From the NCBI GenBank assembly GCA_000697475.1, contig JNEU01001032.1, positions 155,476 through 219,475 of the forward strand: a DNA stretch of 64,000 nt. Reading direction: 5' to 3'. The notes beneath the pieces were generated by a model. That model was not told the origin of the DNA. It ran no database searches and saw only the letters and a program-made list of their open reading frames with translations. The position numbers and the translations under genes were made by a program. The stretch comes from Lichtheimia corymbifera B2541. Lineage: Eukaryota > Mucoromycota > Mucoromycetes > Mucorales > Lichtheimiaceae. This document shows, in pieces, positions 8,447 through 64,000 of the stretch (positions are counted from its first letter, which is position 1; every line of letters begins with the position of its first letter).

Positions 8447-8735
8447 CCCACAAATTAAGGGGTGTGGAAGGCTACAAGAGTCTTGCTGTTGCAGCTGCAG
8501 GGTCACTCTGAGGATATCCGGAACATGCATGTCACCCCCACCATTATTTACCACCACCAGTACCATGATCGAAGAAGCTGCTGTAACAGGATGTATATAT
8601 GTGCATATAAATATATATATGTAAAAGTCTGTGCGTCATTTTTGTGTATGATGGGATATAACAAGGTGATAGTAATAGTCATATATAGACAAGGACGAGA
8701 CCAGCTGCTTGGTGAATCAAAATGGTGTATCATTG

Positions 8736-19858: not shown

Positions 19859-20983
19859 TCAACTTACTCCCCACTTCTTCTTGTCTTCCCACTTGGGCTT
19901 CTTTTCGACAGTCTTGATTGGCCTATAATCACACAGAGTAAGTCAAATGATGAGCGTTGACCAATATGCATAACCAAAAACACTTACACAGCAGCTAATA
20001 AAATAGAAATGATAGGAGGATGAAATTGATCAGTATGATGCATAGTCATGACATCATATAAATAACTTACTTGGTCGCTCGACGATCCACATGGTGGTGG
20101 TCAAGGTGACGGTGTGGTTGGGATCAACTTGGACTTCCTTGTACTTTTTCCAGTCGCCTTTGCCGCCCCAGCTTTCATCGTCATCCCAGCCGCCTTTCTT
20201 GCCATCCCAGCCTTCGTCGTCATCCCAACCACCTTTCTTGCCTCCCCAGCCTTCGTCTTCATCATCCCAGCCGCCTTTTTTGCCACCCCATCCTTCATCA
20301 TCATCGCCCCAGCCTCCTTTCTTGCCACCTTTCTTGCTGTCCCATTCGTCGTCATCGTCATCACCCCAGCCGCCTTTCTTGCCGCCTTTCTTGCTGTCCC
20401 ATTCTTCGTCATCGTCATCATCATCCCAATCGCCCTTCTTGCCACCTTTCTTGCTGTCCCATTCATCATCATCATCGTCATCATCATCCCAGCTCTTGCC
20501 ACCCTTCTTGCCGCTCTTCTTCTTGTGCAATTGTTGGTTTTGGCTTGGTTCCTGAATAAGACGGATAGCAGCGGTACCTGCATCATAGGGACCTGATGCC
20601 TTGATGGTGATGCTGTGTTCGCCTTCAGCGATATCAAAAGTGCCCTTGCTGAATTGATCATTCTCCAAAGCTTCTTCAGGGGTAGCAGCATAGACGGAAT
20701 CATCTTGCTCTGATTCAACTTCGGAAGTTTCACCAATCAAGTTGCCATTATCATAGATCTTGAAAGTATCGCCACGGTTCTTGAAATCAGTGACTTGGAT
20801 ACGGGCAGGCTTGTCGAGGTTGATAGAAAAGGTCTCTACTGCTTGAGCATCTGAATCACCCGACCAGCGGAAAAGAGAAAAGGAATCAGTCAATTCGACG
20901 GGGTCGATGGCTTCTTGTTGTTGTTGGGCGTTGGCTGCCATCAAAAAGGCAGCGGCTGCTGAAAGTGCAAAGAACGTGCGCAT
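19859..20983 (-). CDS. Secreted Lys-Gly-Trp-Asp repeat protein with a 7-nt micro-exon
   Basis: Three exons: 20983-20071, 19994-19988 (7 nt) and 19922-19859 (327 residues). A signal peptide (MRTFFALSAAAAFLMAANA) precedes a ~130-residue beta-rich globular part (from IDPVELTDSFSLFRWSG to AAIRLIQEP). A low-complexity tail follows, built from repeats alternating a KKGGKKG-type basic/Gly block with a W(D/G)DDDD-type acidic block, about nine times, shortening toward the end. The protein ends in a basic segment (KTVEKKPKWEDKKKWG). The alternating charges and Trp suggest a cell-wall or metal-binding matrix protein, but the family is not recognised. The micro-exon keeps the Lys/Trp style of the C-terminus; skipping it shifts the frame but also ends soon after. 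Both flanking introns have good GTAAGT donors. Confidence 0.75.
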
Positions 20984-52600: not shown

Positions 52601-55600
52601 CCTGAAAAGCGTGACCTCCTCCATCTCAAGATTGCTTCGTACTTTATGAACCAACCCAATGTCGACACGTTTTGGGTAGCCGATCACGTCAAAGCAGCTC
52701 TCCACCTCATCAAGCCTCTCGATAAAAAGGCCAATCATCGTGGATTGCTTATCCAGGCGGGTAACAAAGCGTACGGTTCAGGTGCACACAATTTGGCCTA
52801 CTCTTATTATGCAAGTGCCCAAGAATTGTTGAGTCAAGACCCATGGACTGACGGCTACGATAGCGAATATCAGCAAACATTGCACTTGTATACACGCCTT
52901 GCTGAAATCAGTTGGTTTATGGGATATGATGCAACACCTGACTTTATTCATTCCATCCTGAGAAACGCAAAATCAGCCATTGATCGTGCTGCAGCCTATC
53001 GAATACTCCATCGCTATTACTTTTCACGCAAAGAACACCAAAAGAAATCATCCATCTTGCTCAACTGCTTGGCAGAACTCGGTATCGACAATGTGGTGCT
53101 TGATCTCACCGACCAAGAATTACTTGCGTTATACGAAGATACTCGTAGTGAAGTTTTACGTGTTGGCTTGGACAAGATGTCAGATTTGCCTGTATGTGAC
53201 AGTCGCCTTATCCGTACTCGATTATCCATTCTTGAAGAAGTGTAAGTGCTATCAGGGAATAATAGATGATCATACTAATTGTTGCTCAATACAGTTGTTT
53301 ATGGGCATACTGGATGAATGATACCAAAGCCATTCTCTCCATTGGATCACGATTGGTGGTCATGACGCTACAACACGGTGCATCCCCTACAACAGGCGTT
53401 GGCTTTGTGTTCTTTGGCATAGCAGCAATGCAGATTTACAAGGCATATGAATTTGGTCAGCAAATCGGTGCTGTGGGTGTTTCTCTTTGCGATAAGTATG
53501 GTGGCAATTCTGAATCGGCGCGTGCAAGATACCTCTATGGCGCATTCTTGAGCTCATGGAAATATCACTATCGGGATTCGTTACCCATGTTCCGCATATC
53601 GCTCAAGCAAAGTCTTCTCGGTGGTGATCGAATCTATGCCACGTTCTCGCACTTGCATATTGTAATGGGTATGTTGCTGGGCGGTAGTGAGCACATGTCG
53701 GACACCCTACGCGAAGCCAAGTTGTGCTTGGAAGAAGTCATCAGGTAATGTATAAAAAGAGGGTCGAATATATATATTTCAGAATCTAACATGGTGTTTA
53801 CATAGATGGAATGAATCTATCGGCACATCGATACTTGTCACAGCTATCATGCGTATGGTGCTTGCATTGCAGGGCAAAACATACCTTACTCAAGACCGGA
53901 TCTTTGACGACAAGGATTTCCAAGACGAGATTTTCGTGGCGGATATGTATGAGCAGAATCCCGATTCCGGCTTGCCCATGTTTTGGTACTTTGCACTCAA
54001 GTTGATTGCATTGGTCATTTATGGTTATGATGAGGCTGCTTTCAAGATTGGACAAGAATATGCTCAATTGGCCAATATGCAACCATCCCATCGACATACG
54101 CATCTCATGCTTTTCTTCCATTGCTTGGCCATGGTCAGACTTATCCGCAATGGCAAAGGTGACAAGACGACGCTTATGGAGCAAATTGAAAAGCATCGTA
54201 ACACGTTACAAGAGTGGGCACGGCACTCGTAAGTATTTTCAAAGGGTATATATCATGGATGGTATCACTTATGTGTTTTCTCTCTGTAATAGACCTGTCA
54301 ATTTGCAAATGTTTGTATCACTGATTGATGCTGAGCTTGCATCATTCAAAAACGATATGCGGCGCACAGAGCAATTGTATGACCTTGCCATTGATCAAGC
54401 CAAGAGCGGCGATTGGGGTTTGGAGACCAATGTTATGTATGAATTTGCTGGCGAATATTATCTTCGCATTGGTGCTCGCCACGTGGGTGCACTGTTGATT
54501 GAAAAGGCGATCAGCGGATATCGACATCAAGGATGCTATGGCAAAGCTACTCAACTTGAACAACTCCACAACATGAAGCGTGACAAGGAGGCATTTGGTC
54601 ATCACGTGAGCGTGCAAACGGATACACATGTAGTGAGCCCACGACGTGATTCATTCGGTGATATCAGCCTTTCCGAATCGTATTCAGTGGATGTGTCAAC
54701 ATCAGGGCAAACATCTCCGGAAGAAACGCTGTTGACTTTGGACGTTGTTGACTTGGCATCTATCCTCAAGAGCTCTCAAGTGATTTCAAGCGAGATGAAC
54801 TTTGAATTGTTGATGGAGCAAATGCTGGCTATTATCCTTGAGAATTCGGGTGCGGAATCGGGTGTCATCATCATCAAGGAAAACACCTCCTTTTTGATTG
54901 TAGCACGTGGATCACAATCCGATGGATGCGAGATTTTGAAATCACCCAAATTGTTGTCAGAAGATGGACCATCGATGGTCAGCCGTGTGGCACGCTATGC
55001 CATCCATACTCAAGAATCCCTCTTGATCCCAGATATTCAACAAGATCCCCGGTTCTCTGACTTTGCTGGCGCTAACAAGTCGGTTATTTGTGTACCTATC
55101 ACTCACAAGTCAGCCATTGTTGGATGTATCTACATTGAAGGATCCATTGGTTCGCTCACTGCACGACATGAAGTGGTACTGCGCTTGCTATCACAGCAGA
55201 TTGGTATCTCCGTCACCAATGCATTGCTCTTCAAGAGTATCCAAAAAGTCACGTATGCCAATGTCAAGATGATCGAGAGCCAAAAGGCTGCCTTGGAAGA
55301 AGCACGCAAGAGTAAAGAGGCTGCTTTACGTGCCATGAAGCTCAAGGCTGACTTCCTTGCCAACATGTCTCATGAATTGCGTACACCCTTTTCTGGTTTC
55401 TATGGCATGATCTCATTGCTATTGGAGACATCGCTGGATGCTAAAAAAGCCGATATTGTCCATACTGCCAAAGAATCATGCGAAATGCTCTTGAAAATTA
55501 TCAGTAAGTTTCCTTATATACATATATCATTCTTGATGTGTTTACTCACATGTGGATTACATAGATGATCTCCTTAACTTTTCAAAGTTGGAAGCTGGCA

Positions 55601-57351
55601 AGGTTGTACCTGATATTGGCCCACTCAGTGTTGAAGAGGTGATTGCCGACACATTTGAGATCCTCAGTTCATTGGCAGCCCGTAAAGGTTTAGAGCTTGC
55701 TTATATTGTTGAAGCCGATGTTCCTGAGACAGTTATGGGCGACTCTTCACGACTACGACAAATCCTTACCAACCTCCTTGGCAACGCTATCAAGTTCACG
55801 CATGAAGGCGGTGTCGTGATTAAATGTGGATTGGATGAGGAGCTTGAAGATGATCACGTGAGGCTCAAGTTTGAAGTGATTGATACTGGTATTGGTATCG
55901 AACCTGAACAGCAGCGTAACCTATTCGAGCCATTTTCGCAAGTGGATGGAAGCACAACACGCATGTATGGTGGTACCGGCTTAGGCTTATCGATTTGTCT
56001 GCAGCTGGTGCGTTTGATGATGGGCACAGTAGGTGTCATTTCGGAACCAAACAAAGGATCCAACTTTTGGTTCTCGGTGGTGGTTCAGCGAGTCCGAGTA
56101 GCCGAAGAAGAAACACGGCCAACACCCAGCATGCAATTACGAGAAAGCAGCATCTTGCTTGCTACACCACGTGATGCCACAGCCAATATGTTAGGACGCT
56201 TACTCGGTGATTTGCAGTTGAAACGCACGACTACAGATATGCAACATGCCATCGCACAAGCACTTCAAGAACGACATGATATTTTGCTACTGGATATCCC
56301 ACCTATGCCCAGTAGCTATATTGCTCAGCAATTGCAAAGTGTAGACGATGATCCCGAGTGCGATTTACACATCATCCTGCTCTATACTCCAGCTACTGAA
56401 GGACACAAAGTGGCTGCTGAAGCGACCAATTCTGCATCTGATCGACGTGGTCGTATTATGAAAATGGCTAAACCTGCAAGACGCCTTAAGCTTTTGCGTG
56501 TTTTGGAACAAGTATTGAGTCATCCACGCCTTACAATCCAAACATCCAATTCTTTCCAAGGCAGCAGCAATAGCAGCAACCCACAACCATCAGCATCCAT
56601 ATCTTCACCTCCTTCAGCTATTACAAGTACTAGCAACGCCCCAAGCAATCAACAATCTCCTCCTTCACCACCATCTTCACAACAACAACAGCAACCTGCA
56701 TCTGCACCTGCACCACGTCCTACAAGAACCTCATCTACAAGCAGTGGCACTGGCAATAACAACAGCGGTGGTGGTACCAAAATGACCGATCATTTCTACC
56801 CACATGAGCTCGAATGGTTCAAAGACAAGCCTGTATTGATTGCTGAAGACAACATGGTGGCACAAAAGCTCCTTCGTAAACAATTGGAAAAGATGGGCTT
56901 TGTCGTTGAAAGTGCGAACAATGGTGAAGAAGCTGTACAGCTCTGGCAACAACGACCCAAGGATCATTTCGTTATTGGTTTCTTTGATCATCACATGCCA
57001 AAATGTGATGGCGTAGAAGCTACACGCAAAATCCGTCAACTCGAATCATCCAATAACGTTGAAAGCAGCAGCAGCAGTACTACTACTACTGCCACCACTG
57101 ATTTGGCATCGTGCTCATCATCCTTATCCTCCACAAGCTCAACAGCATGCCCGCCTACACCTCAGCGATTACCTATCGTTGCACTTACAGCTGATGTGCA
57201 AACCACTGCACGTGATGTGTGTGTCAATGCTGGTATGGATGGATATCTCACCAAGCCATTGATTCCCAAAGACCTTGCTGTCACTTTACGTCAACTTTGT
57301 CCTTCGCTTTCCTCCACAGCATCCACTCCCACTAGCACATCTCCTTCTTAG
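49637..57351 (+). CDS. Hybrid histidine kinase with kinase-like, AAA-type ATPase, GAF, HK and receiver domains (group X-like)
   Basis: Thirteen exons: 49637-49755, 49821-49999, 50066-50212, 50276-50679, 50735-50815, 50878-51199, 51264-51652, 51731-51755, 51831-53241, 53295-53744, 53806-54228, 54293-55503, 55565-57351 (2,315 residues). Domains in order: a protein-kinase-like module (about 10-290; catalytic loop reads VHGEIKLNAF, so inactive); an ATPase with Walker A GAAGVGKST (Lys419) and a Walker B-like FLEDLHQAD (548-556); a long helical region; GAF (about 1468-1640); HisKA with phospho-His in FLANMSHELRTP (His1677); and HATPase_c with LRQILTNLLGNAIKFT (about 1785-1800), DTGIGIEPEQ (1827) and GGTGLGLSI. 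A degenerate receiver (about 1912-2040) and a C-terminal receiver with Asp2195 (FFDHHMP) and Lys2284 (LTKP) complete it. This order is that of fission yeast Mak2/Mak3 and Candida Chk1, sensors feeding the Ypd1-type phosphorelay in oxidative stress. Confidence 0.93.
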
Positions 57352-57679: not shown

Positions 57680-58015
57680 TGCCAGCTAATAGCCACTTCC
57701 TCTCATTTAACGTTTATCCATTCCACTGCATGTGAACGATGCTCCTGCGCCAACCCATCATCTCAGTCACTCAACTTTGTTGATCCGAGAGGGGTTGACT
57801 AAGCTACGGTCAAAGAGATAGCACATTGGTTGAGATAGGCAACCCATGGTATATGTGGTATTGATGCATTCTTTCTTTGAGCGTAACTCAGTCAAACCCT
57901 CTCGGATCAACAAAGTTGAATCATGGAAATGAATGTCTGGAGCAGGAGAATCGTTCGTATGCAGTGGATTGACGAGTAGTTGGAAATGGGAGGAATGGGC
58001 TATTAGCAGCCAGTT
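57680..58015. mobile_element. Fold-back element FB1 (MITE-like inverted repeat)
   Basis: An inverted repeat of about 335 bp. The inner stem pairs 57771-57800 with 57890-57919 at 29 of 30 positions. Outer arms pair more loosely, with TAATAGCC near 57687 matching GGCTATTA near 57998 and GTGGAT/ATCCAC-type blocks between. It has no protein-coding capacity. It is related in sequence to FB2 at 60.7-61.1 kb (shared GAGCGTAACTC and TTGATCCGAG blocks). It is MITE-like by structure only; no clear target-site duplication was recognised. Confidence 0.65.
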
Positions 58016-58019
58016 ATGA

Positions 58020-59590
58020 GCTGTCACTGAATAGTGTACAAACATCATTATGTAGAAAGGTCCGGTTATACTATTCCGTACAGATTTATTCATTCTTATA
58101 TAATGTTGTATAAATTAGCGTAGCTGAAAGCTATCATAAGTAAGCATCGCACGTTCGTGGTACTCTTGAATCGTTGTATCATAACAGCTCATTCTTTCTT
58201 GAGCAGAGTGAATCAAGTTACAATGAACCACGCATTATGTTGGGAATCATCACTCCTGAATCAATATCTTGCAATGCAAGCGTTCGAGAACCATTCCTGC
58301 CTTTCGTCTATCAATACATGAACTAGGACGTGTGAAAAAAGAATATATAAAAGCATCTCGATACGATGATGTAAATGATCCAATCTCGCTTTTCAACCTT
58401 CAAGTTTCTATTCCCTCTCCTTTCAATCCAGACACTATCCAGTGATCTACAACTTAAGTATATGAACTGATGGCATGATGCTCGTTTAGATACTAGGTTG
58501 AATTTAATGGAAAAGTCGAAGAATAGCACATGGTAGTGTATATGTTGTTTATCGAGAAAGTATGATAAGGGAACAAGCATTGTAAATTGATAAACTACGG
58601 GTGTGTCACATCGAGTCGACAGGGATAACTGTGCCAGTGTATTCTTGATTGCTGCCATCATAAACATCCTTCATCCATGATTGTAAAATAGCTGCTGAAT
58701 GCATTGACCTGGGTATTCCAATAGTGTCTATGACTGTAAAGCACCTTTCACCAAGATACTATCCATTTGGTCGATCCCATCCAATCCATCATCATCCTAA
58801 GCCGTATCCACGTGATCGTTCCTGCGGACGACGCTCGCTCCAAGTAACCAAAGCAGCATTCCACGATCTCTCATCACTGCACTTGATTGCATCCATCCAT
58901 CAAATCCACCATGTTGGTTGAAGACAGCCATGTGATAGCTGCTGATATGCTCCCTTTTCCATCCGGCTGCTGGTCAATCCTTTCTTGGTCATTTTCTTCC
59001 ATCGCAGCCCAACCAGATGAAGATTGCTTGTATTGCGGTGTACTTGATAGCTGATATGGCATCCCATCCATTGTAATCTGGATGTATCAAAGCAAGTTGC
59101 TGCTAGTAACTTGAGACAATAGAGTAAAAGACATTGATAATAGCAACGGCTGCTACGTTTGGTCGCAGCAGAGGATTGTGTGCAAGAGCGTGTGTTGGAG
59201 TAGAGTGACAAGGCTGTGAATGCTGTTTGCGACAATGGAGTAAAGGCCTTGCTAATGGCAGCTGCTGGAATGAATGCTGTCGCGTTTGCTTGTGGCAGAA
59301 GAGTGTACAAGAGAACACGTAGTGTCAAGGGACGCGGGTGTTGTCGTGGGGTGCACACGCCATGGAGTGTGCCATTCAGTCATAGGCATTAGGTCAAGGC
59401 AGTTGAAGGATCGACATGATGGGTTGAAGCAGGACAATCGTTCGTAGGTTGTAGTTGTACTTGAGTGGGGCAACAGTTGAGAATGGGAGGAAGAGGCAAG
59501 AACTAGGGAGTGGAAGAAGTGGAAATTAAATAGATCAGGCACAGTCAGACATATCCATGCACACAATAAAGTAATAAATCCATGACCTTG
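58020..59590. other. Gene-poor region, possible coding relics
   Basis: About 1.6 kb without a defensible gene. Minus-strand frames at 58900-59358 and 58323-58667 are open but without domain or intron logic. Segment 59390-59500 contains pieces similar to the outer arm of FB1 (AATCGTTCGTA, then TTGAGAATGGGAGGA-like). This suggests decayed copies of the same element family. Confidence 0.4.
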
Positions 59591-59599
59591 AATGCCTCT

Positions 59600-60440
59600 C
59601 TCGAACATGAAACTTTCACACAATATGCTCTACGTCATGCTGATCAACTTTGTCTTATTAAAGAACCCACACTTCATTCAAAGATTTTGAATGGGAGGGT
59701 ATAATATGGGCTTTACTATGATGGACGTAAATTCCGCACCCCGCCGGATTCAATGAAATGTCATTTAGTATAAAGAATCTTGGGATTGCCCACTTTGAAC
59801 ATGAAACTTGGTAAGAAGGTTCTCTGAATCATGCTGATCAGCTCCATTCATTTAAAAACCGTATGCTTCATTATGATGTTTTACGAATCGGGCAGTCCAA
59901 ATATAGGACGGACGGGACGCAAGTAGGGTGCATAGTGCACACCCCCGCCGTTGTCCACCTCCATCGTCAAACTTGGTCGGCCGCCTGGGCTGCGACATGC
60001 TGATCACCTCCATTCATATTGAAGTCGCAGGCTTCATTGTGACAAATAAAATGGGAGCGTCGGATGATGAACAGACAGGTATATATGGAGTGTGGACTGC
60101 CCATAACCTTGAGATTGCCCATTTCGAACCTGAAACTTTCACACAAGATGCTCATGGACATGCTAATCAATTTCGTTCTCATAAAGACATCGCGCTTCAT
60201 TTAAAAATCTTGAATGGGAGGGTGTAATGTGGGGTTTACTATGAAGGCCGGAAATTCCGCACCCGCCCAAATTCATGAAATGTCAGTTACTATGCATTAT
60301 CTTGGGATTCCCTCTTTCGAACATGAAACTTGGCAAGAAGGTTCGCTGAGTCATGCTGATCAACTCCATTCATTTAAAAATAGCATGCTTCATTATGATG
60401 CTTCAATGAATCGGACGGCCCATATATAGAAGAGACGATG
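59600..60440. repeat. Diverged tandem repeat, period about 520 bp
   Basis: Two diverged copies can be aligned by eye; the block AATGGGAGGGT occurs near 59690 and 60212. Shared flanking blocks include ATTCCGCACCC, CATGAAACTTGG, CATGCTGATCA, CTCCATTCATTTAAAAA and GCTTCATTATGATG. Within each copy a shorter module starting near GAACATGAAACTT recurs twice. The spacing is 522 bp. No protein frame is conserved between the copies. The module is related to the unit ends of the 327-bp satellite further right. Confidence 0.65.
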
Positions 60441-60479
60441 GATGGACGGCAACGTCCACGAGATTGCCCATCTCCATCA

Positions 60480-61330
60480 TGAAACTTTGCACATATGGTG
60501 CTGTCGACCATGACGAACAACTTTGTTCGATTGAAGACCCCACGTTTCATTGTAAAGTTTAGAGATACAGGTACCTTTATGTTTTTACATATGCCGTAAG
60601 CGTGTCAAGTAGCTAGACCCTCATAGCACCAAAGATGCAGAGAGGCGTGTTTGTATACGTAACACACCTGGTTAGGTTGACCTGGAAGGGTCAATTCATG
60701 ACAGGTAAGCAAACGTCATATCTAATGCATACATTAGCAGCCAACATGCACTTTTTTCCATTCCCAGCTTTTGCCCAATCCACTTGATGGGAATGATGCG
60801 CCTGCTCCGGTCGAGCATTTCCATGACTCAATTGTCTTGATCCGAGTCACTTTGACTGAGTTACGCTCAAATAAAGAGACATCAGTTGAGGTAGATAGTG
60901 CATGCTGTATGTGTGGGTTGACATGCTCTTTGTTTGAGCGTAACTCGGTCAAATCAGCACGGATCAAGAAAGTTGAAAGATGTAGATGAATGTCTGCAAC
61001 AGGCGCATCATTCTTATCAAGTGAATTGGGCAAAAGCTGGAGTGGAAAAAAAAGTGCATGTTAGCTGCCAATGTATGCATTGGAAATGACGTTTGCGTAG
61101 CTGCCATGCATTGTCCCTGAGTGCTGACTTTTTAGCTCAGGTACACAAACACGACTCTCTGCATCTTTGGCTCTGTTAGACTCAAGCTACTTGACAATCA
61201 ACAAAGACCACTTGCCATATAACACCACGCTTACAGCATATGCAAAACATAAAGGTGCCTGTATCTCTAAACTTTACAATGAAACATGGGATCTTTCATA
61301 GAACAATATTGCTCGTCGGGGTGAAGCGCA
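60480..61330. repeat. Large imperfect palindrome (~840 bp) carrying FB2 at its centre
   Basis: Left arm 60540-60720 is the inverted copy of right arm 61100-61285. For example, CATTGTAAAGTTTAGAGATA near 60549 pairs with TATCTCTAAACTTTACAATG near 61262, and GATGCAGAGAG near 60634 pairs with CTCTCTGCATC near 61157. The centre is at about 60,910 and is occupied by the fold-back element FB2. The arms are half-units of the same family as the 327-bp satellite. Confidence 0.75.
60720..61090. mobile_element. Fold-back element FB2 (MITE-like)
   Basis: An inverted repeat of about 370 bp. The outer arms start near AATGCATACATTAGCAGC (60723) and are mirrored by GCTGCCAATGTATGCATT (61063). The inner arms carry ACTGAGTTACGCTCAAA (60855-60871) and its inverse near 60932-60948. 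It shares inner-arm blocks with FB1, so both belong to one family. It has no coding capacity. It appears to be inserted at the centre of a larger palindrome. Confidence 0.65.
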
Positions 61331-61369
61331 CCTTGGGTGCATGTTTCACGATCAACCTCGCCAATCTCT

Positions 61370-61458
61370 GATTTACCCAATGTCACCACCAGCCTCGTCG
61401 AAAAAAATTCAAGAGGTCGACCTGGTTCACTTTGGCTGGTGGTGACATTGGGTGAATC
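61370..61458. repeat. Perfect 20-bp hairpin at a repeat junction
   Basis: ACCCAATGTCACCACCAGCC at 61375-61394 is mirrored exactly at 61434-61453, with a 39-nt loop. With one mismatch the stem extends to 25 bp. Outside it, the flanks (about 61330-61370 and 61460-61500) are themselves diverged inverted copies of the satellite spacer. The hairpin is therefore the centre of a wider palindrome at about 61,414. Confidence 0.85.
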
Positions 61459-61499
61459 TTAGAATGGCCACGACGATCGTGAAACTTGCACCCAAGGTG

Positions 61500-64000
61500 C
61501 GCTTCACCCCGACGAGCAACTTTGTTCGATTGAAGACCCCACGTTTCATTGTAAAGTTTAGAGATACAGGCACCTTTATGTTTTACATATGCTATAAGCG
61601 TGGTGCTATATGACAAGTGGTGTTTGTTCATTGTGAAGCAGCTTGGCTCTAATAGAGCGGAAGGTGCGCAGGGGCGTGCTTGTGTAACACAGCTCATTTG
61701 CATGATACTTCACAATGAACAAACACCACTCTCCATATAGCATTATGGTTACAGCATATGTAAAAACGTAAATGTGCCTGCATCTTGGATTGGAAAGCTT
61801 GATCGTGAAACTTGCACCCAAGGTGCGCTTCACCCCGACGAGCAACTTTGTTCGATTGAAGACCCCACGTTTCATTGTAAAGTTTAGAGATACAGGCACC
61901 TTTATGTTTTACATATGCTATAAGCGTGGTGCTATATGACAAGTGGTGTTTGTTCATTGTGAAGCAGCTTGGCTCTAATAGAGCGGAAGGTGCGCAGGGG
62001 CGTGCTAGTGTAACACAGCTCATTTGCATGATACTTCACAATGAACAAACACCACTCTCCATATAGCATTATGGTTACAGCATATGTAAAAACGTAAATG
62101 TGCCTGCATCTTGGATTGGAAAGCTTGATGGTGAAACATGATTGACAAGGTGCGCTCACCCACGACGAGCAACATTGTTCGATTGAAGACCCCACGTTTC
62201 ATTGTAAAGTTTAGAGATACAGGCACCTTTATGTTTTACATATGCTATAAGCGTGGTGCTATATGACAAGTGGTGTTTGTTCATTGTGAAGCAGCTTGGC
62301 TCTAATAGAGCGGAAGGTGCGCAGGGGCGTGCTTGTGTAACACAGCTCATTTGCATGATACTTCACAATGAACAAACACCACTCTCCATATAGCATTATG
62401 GTTACAGCATATGTAAAAACGTAAATGTGCCTGCATCTTGGATTGGAAAGCTTGATGGTGAAACATGATTGACAAGGTGCGCTCACCCACGACGAGCAAT
62501 ATTGTTCTATGAAAGATCCCATGTTTCATTGTAAAGTTTAGAGATAAATGCACTTTCTCGTTTTACATATTGCTGAAAAGCATGATGCTATATGACAAGT
62601 GGTGTTTGTTTATTGTGAAGTATCATGCAAATGAGCTCAGGTACACAAACACGCCCCTCTGCATCTTTGGCTCTATTAAGGTCTAGCTACTTGACAATCA
62701 ACAAAGACCACTTATCATATAGCATCATGCTTTTCAGCACATGTAAAACGAGAAAGTGCATTTATCTCTAAACTTTACAATGAAACATGGGCTCTTTCAT
62801 AAAACAATATTGCTCGTCGTGGTAGAGCGCACCTTGTCAATCATGTTTCACGATCGAGCTTGCCAATCCTAGATGCAGGCACTTTTGCGTTTTTACATAT
62901 GCTAAAAGCATGATGCTATATGACAAGTGATGTTTGTTCATTGTGAAGTTATGCAAATGAGCTGTGTTGCAAAAGAACGTCTCTGCGTATCTTCCGCTCT
63001 ATTAGGTCCAAGCTACTTGACAATGAACAAACACCACTTGTCATATAGCATCATGCTTTTCAGCAATATGTAAAACGAGAAAGTGCATTTATCTCTAAAC
63101 TTTACAATGAAACATGGGATCTTTCATAGAACAATATTGCTCGTCGTGGGTGAGCGCACCTTGTCAATCATGTTTCACCATCAAGCTTTCCAATCCAAGA
63201 TGCAGGCACATTTACGTTTTTACATATGCTGTAACCATAATGCTATATGGAGAGTGGTGTTTGTTCATTGTGAAGTATCATGCAAATGAGCTGTGTTACA
63301 CAAGCACGCCCCTGCGCACCTTCCGCTCTATTAGAGCCAAGCTGCTTCACAATGAACAAACACCACTTGTCATATAGCACCACGCTTATAGCATATGTAA
63401 AACATAAAGGTGCCTGTATCTCTAAACTTTACAATGAAACGTGGGGTCTTCAATCGAACAAAGTTGCTCGTCGGGGTGAGCGCACCTTGTCAATCATGTT
63501 TCACCATCAAGCTTTCCAATCCAAGATGCAGGCACATTTACGTTTTTACATATGCTGTAACCATAATGCTATATGGAGAGTGGTGTTTGTTCATTGTGAA
63601 GTATCATGCAAATGAGCTGTGTTACACAAGCACGCCCCTGCGCACCTTCCGCTCTATTAGAGCCAAGCTGCTTCACAATGAACAAACACCACTTGTCATA
63701 TAGCACCACGCTTATAGCATATGTAAAACATAAAGGTGCCTGTATCTCTAAACTTTACAATGAAACATGGGATCTTCATAGAACAAAATTGCTCGTCGGG
63801 GTGAGCGCACCTTGTCAATCATGTTTCACCATCAAGCTTTCCAATCCAAGATGCAGGCACATTTACGTTTTTACATATGCTGTAACCATAATGCTATATG
63901 GAGAGTGGTGTTTGTTCATTGTGAAGTATCATGCAAATGAGCTGTGTTACACAAGCACGCCCCTGCGCACCTTCCGCTCTATTAGAGCCAAGCTGCTTCA
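61500..64000. repeat. 327-bp-period palindromic satellite array, orientation flips at 62,655
   Basis: Eight units are seen, the last cut by the window end. Each contains an inverted repeat whose innermost stem is 22 nt (TTTGTTCATTGTGAAG and its mirror, plus GTGGTG), in most units identical. Stem pairs are 61617-61638/61708-61729, 61943-61964/62034-62055, 62270-62291/62361-62382, 62599-62620/62690-62711, 62927-62948/63016-63037, 63254-63275/63345-63366, 63580-63601/63671-63692, and 63905-63926 with its mirror beginning at 63996. Centres are 326-329 bp apart. Arms are about 80 bp with ~70-bp loops. The spacer (CTCGTCG, then GTGAGCGCACCTTG) reads in opposite directions left and right of 62,655. 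Open frames in the units are by-products of repetition. Confidence 0.9.

Follow-up and report, generated by a model that had tools for sequence, protein, structure and literature searches.

What kind of repeat forms the tandem array of hairpin-capable units that closes the 64,000-nucleotide stretch of Lichtheimia corymbifera B2541 DNA analysed here (the window; C336:155476-219475), and are its hairpins kept by selection? We scanned the assembly of 34,979,012 bases in 432 contigs. The window has a G+C content of 40-49% per kb, and a value of 43.4% is reported for L. corymbifera (PMC4133162). The initial annotation described about eight tandem units, each with a hairpin and a 22-nt inner stem, and all three features were borne out: TRF gave a period of 326-327 across the array (scores 2029 and 2246), a BLAST map with one unit as query (63289-63615) placed unit starts 325-329 bp apart, and both the hairpin, e.g. 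with 65-nt arms, and the 22-nt stem are present in aligned units. A unit comprises a ~69-nt loop, homologous inverted arms and a second, shorter spacer; each is an inverted duplication of two homologous arms, so all units can fold. The folding energy of the segment 61560-61800 is -71 kcal/mol, whereas shuffled sequences average -28.6 (z = -12; none of 200 shuffles as good). Unmentioned until now were a switch of unit orientation near 62620-62634 (minus to the left, plus to the right in the BLAST map), the truncation of the array by the contig end (window base 64000 is base 219475, the final base of C336), an extension of the repeat leftward to ~58053, and its dispersal through the genome. Because of the truncation, the full array may be longer than the window shows. 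The inverted arms at its left edge contain a short TCACCACCAGCC...GGCTGGTGGTGA hairpin, which by eye is a flip centre at other loci too.

Features of the repeat in the window and of the LINE-like insertions nested in other copies (positions refer to the window unless a locus is named).
Feature	Position	Strand	Remarks
Part of ~1.1-kb middle domain ("spacer")	58053-58680	-	elsewhere links arm A to inverted arm B
Outer arm, subfamily A	58681-59560	-	at least 40 candidate places genome-wide, 43 matching pieces
"Mid" domain	59561-60480	-	diverged repeats; core like unit core by eye
MITE-like hairpin element, 446 bp	60680-61125	.	nested in repeat; 97% copy at equivalent place in L010
Inverted arms	61134-61694	.	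261 nt, 85%, around 39-nt centre
Uninserted LINE target GTTTCACGATC	61343-61353	+	
Uninserted LINE target GTTTCACGATC	61475-61485	-	
Unit array	61493-64000	.	~8 units, 325-329 bp apart; TRF and BLAST map
Minus units	61493-62620	-	one partial, two full, one partial without positions 1-56; BLAST map
Example unit hairpin	61581-61765	.	arms 61581-61645 and 61701-61765, 83% complementary, 55 nt apart
Uninserted LINE target GTTTCACGATC	61801-61811	-	
Left arm, 468-nt inverted repeat	62160-62627	.	99% complementary to 63009-63476
Plus units	62634-64000	+	four full, one 61-nt partial; BLAST map
Uninserted LINE target GTTTCACGATC	62845-62855	+	
Right arm, 468-nt inverted repeat	63009-63476	.	pairs with 62160-62627
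Nested LINE-like insertion	L014:4961-6302		GTTTC target, ORF1 only
Nested LINE-like insertion	L016:2003-3368		GTTTC target, ORF1 only
Further nested LINE-like copies	L034, L035, L037, L040, L042		GTTTC target, ORF1 only

The inner stem had been described as far better conserved than the rest of the unit, with selection as a possible cause. From 190 mostly non-overlapping unit matches in the window and 22 loci we aligned the 43 full-length units (window and 19 loci) and excluded 147 partial matches. In the 37 full units outside the window, the 5' inner arm has a mean conservation of 0.923, the 3' arm one of 0.957 and the rest one of 0.915, and 45% and 5% of 22-nt windows equalled or beat the 5' and 3' arm, respectively. 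The six full units of the window score 0.970, 0.992 and 0.943 in the same order, and here 37% and 2% of 22-nt windows reach the values of the two arms. The 3' inner arm therefore stands out, the 5' inner arm is average, and unit positions ~192-214, outside the inner stem, are equally conserved (0.959). The initial annotation drew on the units of the window, which are few and much alike. Moreover, comparison of the 43 aligned units with column shuffles revealed no sign of compensatory evolution of the stem. Across 76 stem pairs, 89.3% of cells pair (89.2% in shuffles), 9 pairs show two-sided changes (10.6), the changed cells number 31 (27.6, with 97 of 500 shuffles reaching 31), and the covariation score is 0.090 (0.088, with 106 of 500 shuffles reaching 0.090), not above the shuffle range. 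For the 22 inner pairs, pairing is 94.0% against 94.3% in shuffles, with one two-sided pair against 1.9. Sliding the partner lowers pairing to 32-51%, as expected of arms with shared descent. Selection for stem structure was not supported by the conservation and covariation tests; the hairpins look inherited rather than selected, and the pairing of unit arms would reflect their shared descent. Thus a strong hairpin in every unit need not imply selection for structure.

The strong fold is also what speaks for retention of the units as a source of double-stranded RNA, in which read-through transcripts would yield small RNAs. RNAi is reported to silence retrotransposons in Mucorales (PMC7377519), dicer and argonaute genes are described in L. 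corymbifera (PMC4133162), and 13 permissive Rfam matches in 60400-64000 all belong to miRNA-precursor models (best MIR5638, E = 7.6e-12). We nevertheless regard this explanation as improbable, since the 5' inner arm is averagely conserved, covariation is lacking, and all 13 matches lie below the gathering score (for MIR5638, 52 against 500 bits), as expected of any long hairpin. No Rfam match in the window reached gathering, and the reading as an RNA gene was rejected.

The genomic distribution decides on the satellite label. The 15-nt loop word has 705 exact copies in the 35-Mb genome (350 and 355 by strand) and none in the reversed control, and a unit has at least 655 matches genome-wide at E ≤ 1e-3. 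The 100 loop-word matches listed, all from contigs C4 to C149, form 62 loci on 48 contigs when matches within 10 kb are merged; by extrapolation, over 400 loci would exist genome-wide if the remaining matches behave alike. Among the 20 regions fetched first, 15 lie in contig interiors and 5 are cut by a contig end. A centromeric satellite should form few clusters, about one per chromosome, and a classical one long head-to-tail arrays at few chromosomal sites, whereas the arrays here are short, flip and occur at many loci. A half-unit of ~164 bp, near nucleosomal size, and the five truncated regions would suit a centromeric, pericentric or subtelomeric satellite, which we consider highly improbable in view of the 48 contigs, the interior positions and the short flipping arrays, and which was rejected on genomic distribution. 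Of the satellite label, the tandem array stands and the classical satellite does not, as the units flip, are dispersed and belong to a larger palindromic repeat. Among the roles listed in the initial annotation, the centromeric or subtelomeric one accordingly fell with the many contigs, and that of amplified fold-back transposons gained from the position of the units inside a dispersed palindromic repeat. That the window array stops at a contig end could point to an assembly artefact, but this is scarcely credible: full units number 43 across the window and 19 further loci, 15 regions lie inside contigs, and at many loci the flanks are not common to the compared loci. The repeat itself may account for some breaks in this assembly.

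Pfam analysis of four neighbouring ORFs found ordinary gene domains in three (aspartyl protease, HAD-like hydrolase and HET) and just weak coiled-coil matches in the fourth. The HET-domain ORF (L017:2022-2738) adjoins one repeat copy; expanded heterokaryon-incompatibility genes are reported for Lichtheimia (PMC4133162). In the window, hybrid histidine kinase-like ORFs at 54006-57351 end ~700 bp short of the repeat, and an ORF at 20054-20983 on the minus strand has tandem acidic and GGKKGGW repeats after a hydrophobic start. The unit ORF matches six proteins, five predicted in L. corymbifera FSU:9682 and one unnamed; a coding reading was rejected, these proteins being best interpreted as fortuitous ORFs from further copies of the repeat. 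Repetitive elements are given as 4.7% of L. corymbifera by Repbase/Censor (PMC4133162), a method that can miss unlisted repeat families, and in the titles and abstract openings of the open-access literature we found no account of such a Lichtheimia repeat.

The leftward extension emerged from comparison of the 20 fetched regions, and mapping of 16 loci gave the block order unit array, mid, arm (subfamilies A and B), ~1.1-kb middle domain, inverted arm, mid and unit array; the blocks are mostly incomplete, yet the order recurs. There are two kinds of inverted-repeat centre, the unit array and the middle domain, and the palindromes alternate along copies; either dyad could be the true centre of the element. 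Self-palindromic identity is 81% over a 6.0-kb span in L013 and 86% over a 3.7-kb span in L022 (both arms counted) and 86% between two 2.4-kb arms in L012, and in C335 mid-armA and armB-midB are inverted copies with 70% identity over 1849 columns around ~1 kb. The repeat thus combines the long inverted repeats of a foldback element with tandem subrepeats inside them, the 327-bp units of the window and 19 loci. BLAST aligns the mid domain with the unit in just short stretches (37 nt, 78%, E = 1e-4), a weak indication that it is a run of diverged modules with a unit-related core. Between the window and L010, 4.4 kb align collinearly with 83% identity, flips and nested hairpin included. The MITE-like hairpin was dropped as a dating mark: its copies are 97% identical against ~83% for the surrounding repeat, and a shared ancestral insertion is not clear. 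A second, related MITE-like hairpin, 74% alike, lies at 57719-57971. An extra conserved domain beyond the units is common to L017 (8681-8762), L019 (near 8461-8545) and L020, and might hold the true element end.

We conclude that this is probably a non-autonomous, foldback-like (inverted-repeat) mobile repeat of Lichtheimia, now mostly decayed, whose inner module was amplified locally. The family would have spread by transposition, with a transposase acting in trans, and its borders would have decayed afterwards; there is no need of a host function to explain it. What appeared to be a special hairpin satellite can be explained as part of a repeat dispersed through the genome. Eleven loci examined at their approximate borders showed neither a target-site duplication nor a common terminus: words of 7-8 nt are shared in 7 loci, and none of 7 nt or more in the other 4. 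Just one word, of 8 nt at L017, is close to both borders; we discarded it as a duplication, since it lies inside homology running ~16 bases further, and the borders are for this reason used as approximate. With neither the ~8-10-bp target-site duplications nor the fixed termini of foldback elements at these 11 decayed, approximately bordered loci, we call the repeat foldback-like and claim no foldback membership. ORFs of at least 150 aa were listed for 22 loci, and among the six scanned with Pfam no transposase was identified; two of the six lie inside the repeat, and both carry a zinc knuckle and are read as LINE ORF1. Collinear copies can also arise via segmental duplication, and the lack of target-site duplications, the variable borders, the alternation of palindromes in chains and the presence of the window and L010 on one contig, 135 kb apart, would all suit a spread without transposase, by segmental or replication-based inverted duplication (template switching, breakage-fusion). 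We hold this to be rather unlikely, because the many loci lie on many contigs with their blocks in constant order and the gene neighbours differ among the four scanned ORFs.

Within a mobile foldback-like repeat, the window array would have grown inside a single copy, either through unequal exchange or through duplication and conversion between the two sides of the palindrome. Units of different loci are on average 85.5% identical (861 pairs), those of the same locus 88.4% (42 pairs). The within-locus pairs are few and come mostly from the window and L025; their mean identity is 0.893 in opposite orientation (n = 25) and 0.871 in the same orientation (n = 17). The top opposite-orientation pairs reach 0.994 (window), 0.988 (L016), 0.976 (L025) and 0.967 (L018), and the top same-orientation pair 0.985 (window). 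These values are compatible with local duplication or with conversion between the halves of the palindrome. The gene conversion proposed earlier is therefore plausible beside recent duplication, opposite units being 97-99% identical within a locus against 85.5% between loci.

A comparable element is Tetris, a foldback of Drosophila virilis with long inverted repeats and a variable number of ~220-bp internal tandem repeats; its middle domain is reported to be non-coding, many of its copies to be rearranged and its tandem units to have expanded into satellite-like arrays, and it has target-site duplications of 8-10 bp (PMC4079207). The Lichtheimia repeat shares with it long inverted repeats, tandem units, a middle domain, rearranged copies and amplified arrays. 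It differs in that no target-site duplication was found at the 11 approximately bordered loci, and in that its tandem unit is itself palindromic, its arrays flip and two dyad kinds alternate. The foldback (FB) elements of Drosophila have long inverted repeats of tandem subrepeats, able to fold back, as well as defined termini and duplications. The Lichtheimia repeat likewise has foldable long inverted repeats with tandem subrepeats, whereas defined termini and duplications were not found at its 11 loci.

Copies of the repeat also contain other elements. L014 and L016 carry, near a flip centre, insertions with a zinc-knuckle ORF (zf-CCHC, Pfam). These insertions have the same 3' end, terminate in poly-A and are flanked by duplications. 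This 3' end has 11 matches genome-wide, 8 of them followed by poly-A and exact GTTTCACGATC; at C212 it is followed by GTTTCATGATC, at C286 the junction reads GTTTCGACGTC and is located in the mid domain, and at C114 no junction was found. All seven copies with both flanks have a duplication of 11-14 bp that begins with GTTTC, an ORF start codon 0-5 bases past the duplication and an element length of 1287-1342 bp; C308, C334 and C269, which have the junction and begin at contig ends without upstream flank, stand outside the seven. Not every frame is whole, ORF1 of C286 being split into two pieces. Small LINE-like elements thus use the repeat as a specific site of insertion. Poly-A tail, target duplication and constant target, as in site-specific non-LTR elements, occur in each of the seven, which hold ORF1 only, with no reverse transcriptase and endonuclease of their own, and are therefore non-autonomous. 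A LINE endonuclease recognising the GTTTC motif would use the repeat as landing site. That every LINE here uses this site was rejected, as C333 and C32, two LINEs of a different kind with long ORF2 frames and poly-A tails, insert at places other than GTTTC.

Six or more A followed by GTTTCACGATC occur 14 times genome-wide and never in the control. At C146, C202, C268, C270 and C314 this junction is preceded by a 3' end of a third type; C381, the fourteenth junction, was outside the 3'-end comparison. The C268 and C381 junctions lie behind ORF1-type frames, and the two main ORF1 types are ~30% identical. At C146 (C146:10081-10980, L043) the junction lies behind an ORF with a zf-RVT match of 25 bits against a cut-off of 27.5, which looks like the C-terminus of a LINE ORF2 and is a possible autonomous partner. 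An ORF1 inside the repeat at another locus has 12 protein matches at E ≤ 1e-5, one of them unnamed and the other 11 from L. corymbifera or L. ornata; an L. corymbifera protein shares 100% identity with it over 75% of the query.

As none of the seven elements has a 5' leader, their RNA may start in the repeat, which suggests that the repeat supplies transcription of the ORF1 elements. We tentatively put forward, as a possibility short of an even chance, that it serves as a transcribed landing pad for a split LINE lineage, in which leaderless ORF1-only elements are expressed by read-through and mobilised by an ORF2 partner in trans. At least two ORF1 types would insert at one GTTTC unit site, and once in the mid domain, and the ORF2 partner would use the same GTTTC site. 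If true, the repeat would be promoter donor and safe haven, as rDNA is for R2, but made from selfish DNA. More interest attaches to the nested elements: full-length, leaderless and ORF1-only, with a single target, they allow a clean test of whether a selfish repeat can fill the role of rDNA for R2, and of what an ORF1-only element gains.

Tx1D/Tx1L of Xenopus is an inverted-repeat element with tandem repeats that is the specific target of a LINE. The palindromic repeat of Lichtheimia is likewise LINE-targeted, with the difference that its insertions encode just ORF1 and have no 5' leader. R2-type non-LTR elements have a fixed target in a repeat family and are possibly transcribed from the host repeat. 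The Lichtheimia elements also have a fixed target in a repeat family, and transcription from the host repeat is possible for them; in contrast, their target is a non-coding palindromic repeat and the seven studied copies lack reverse transcriptase. Grem-LINE1 of Mucor is reported as LINE1-like, in Mucoromycotina and pericentric (PMC7377519); it is set beside the Lichtheimia insertions by description, as LINE1-like Mucoromycotina elements too, the pericentric location being that of Mucor. Furthermore, contigs C1, C93 and C406 all start exactly 300 bases away from one and the same zf-RVT match, on its 3' side, as though assembly had stopped at the 3' ends of LINEs.
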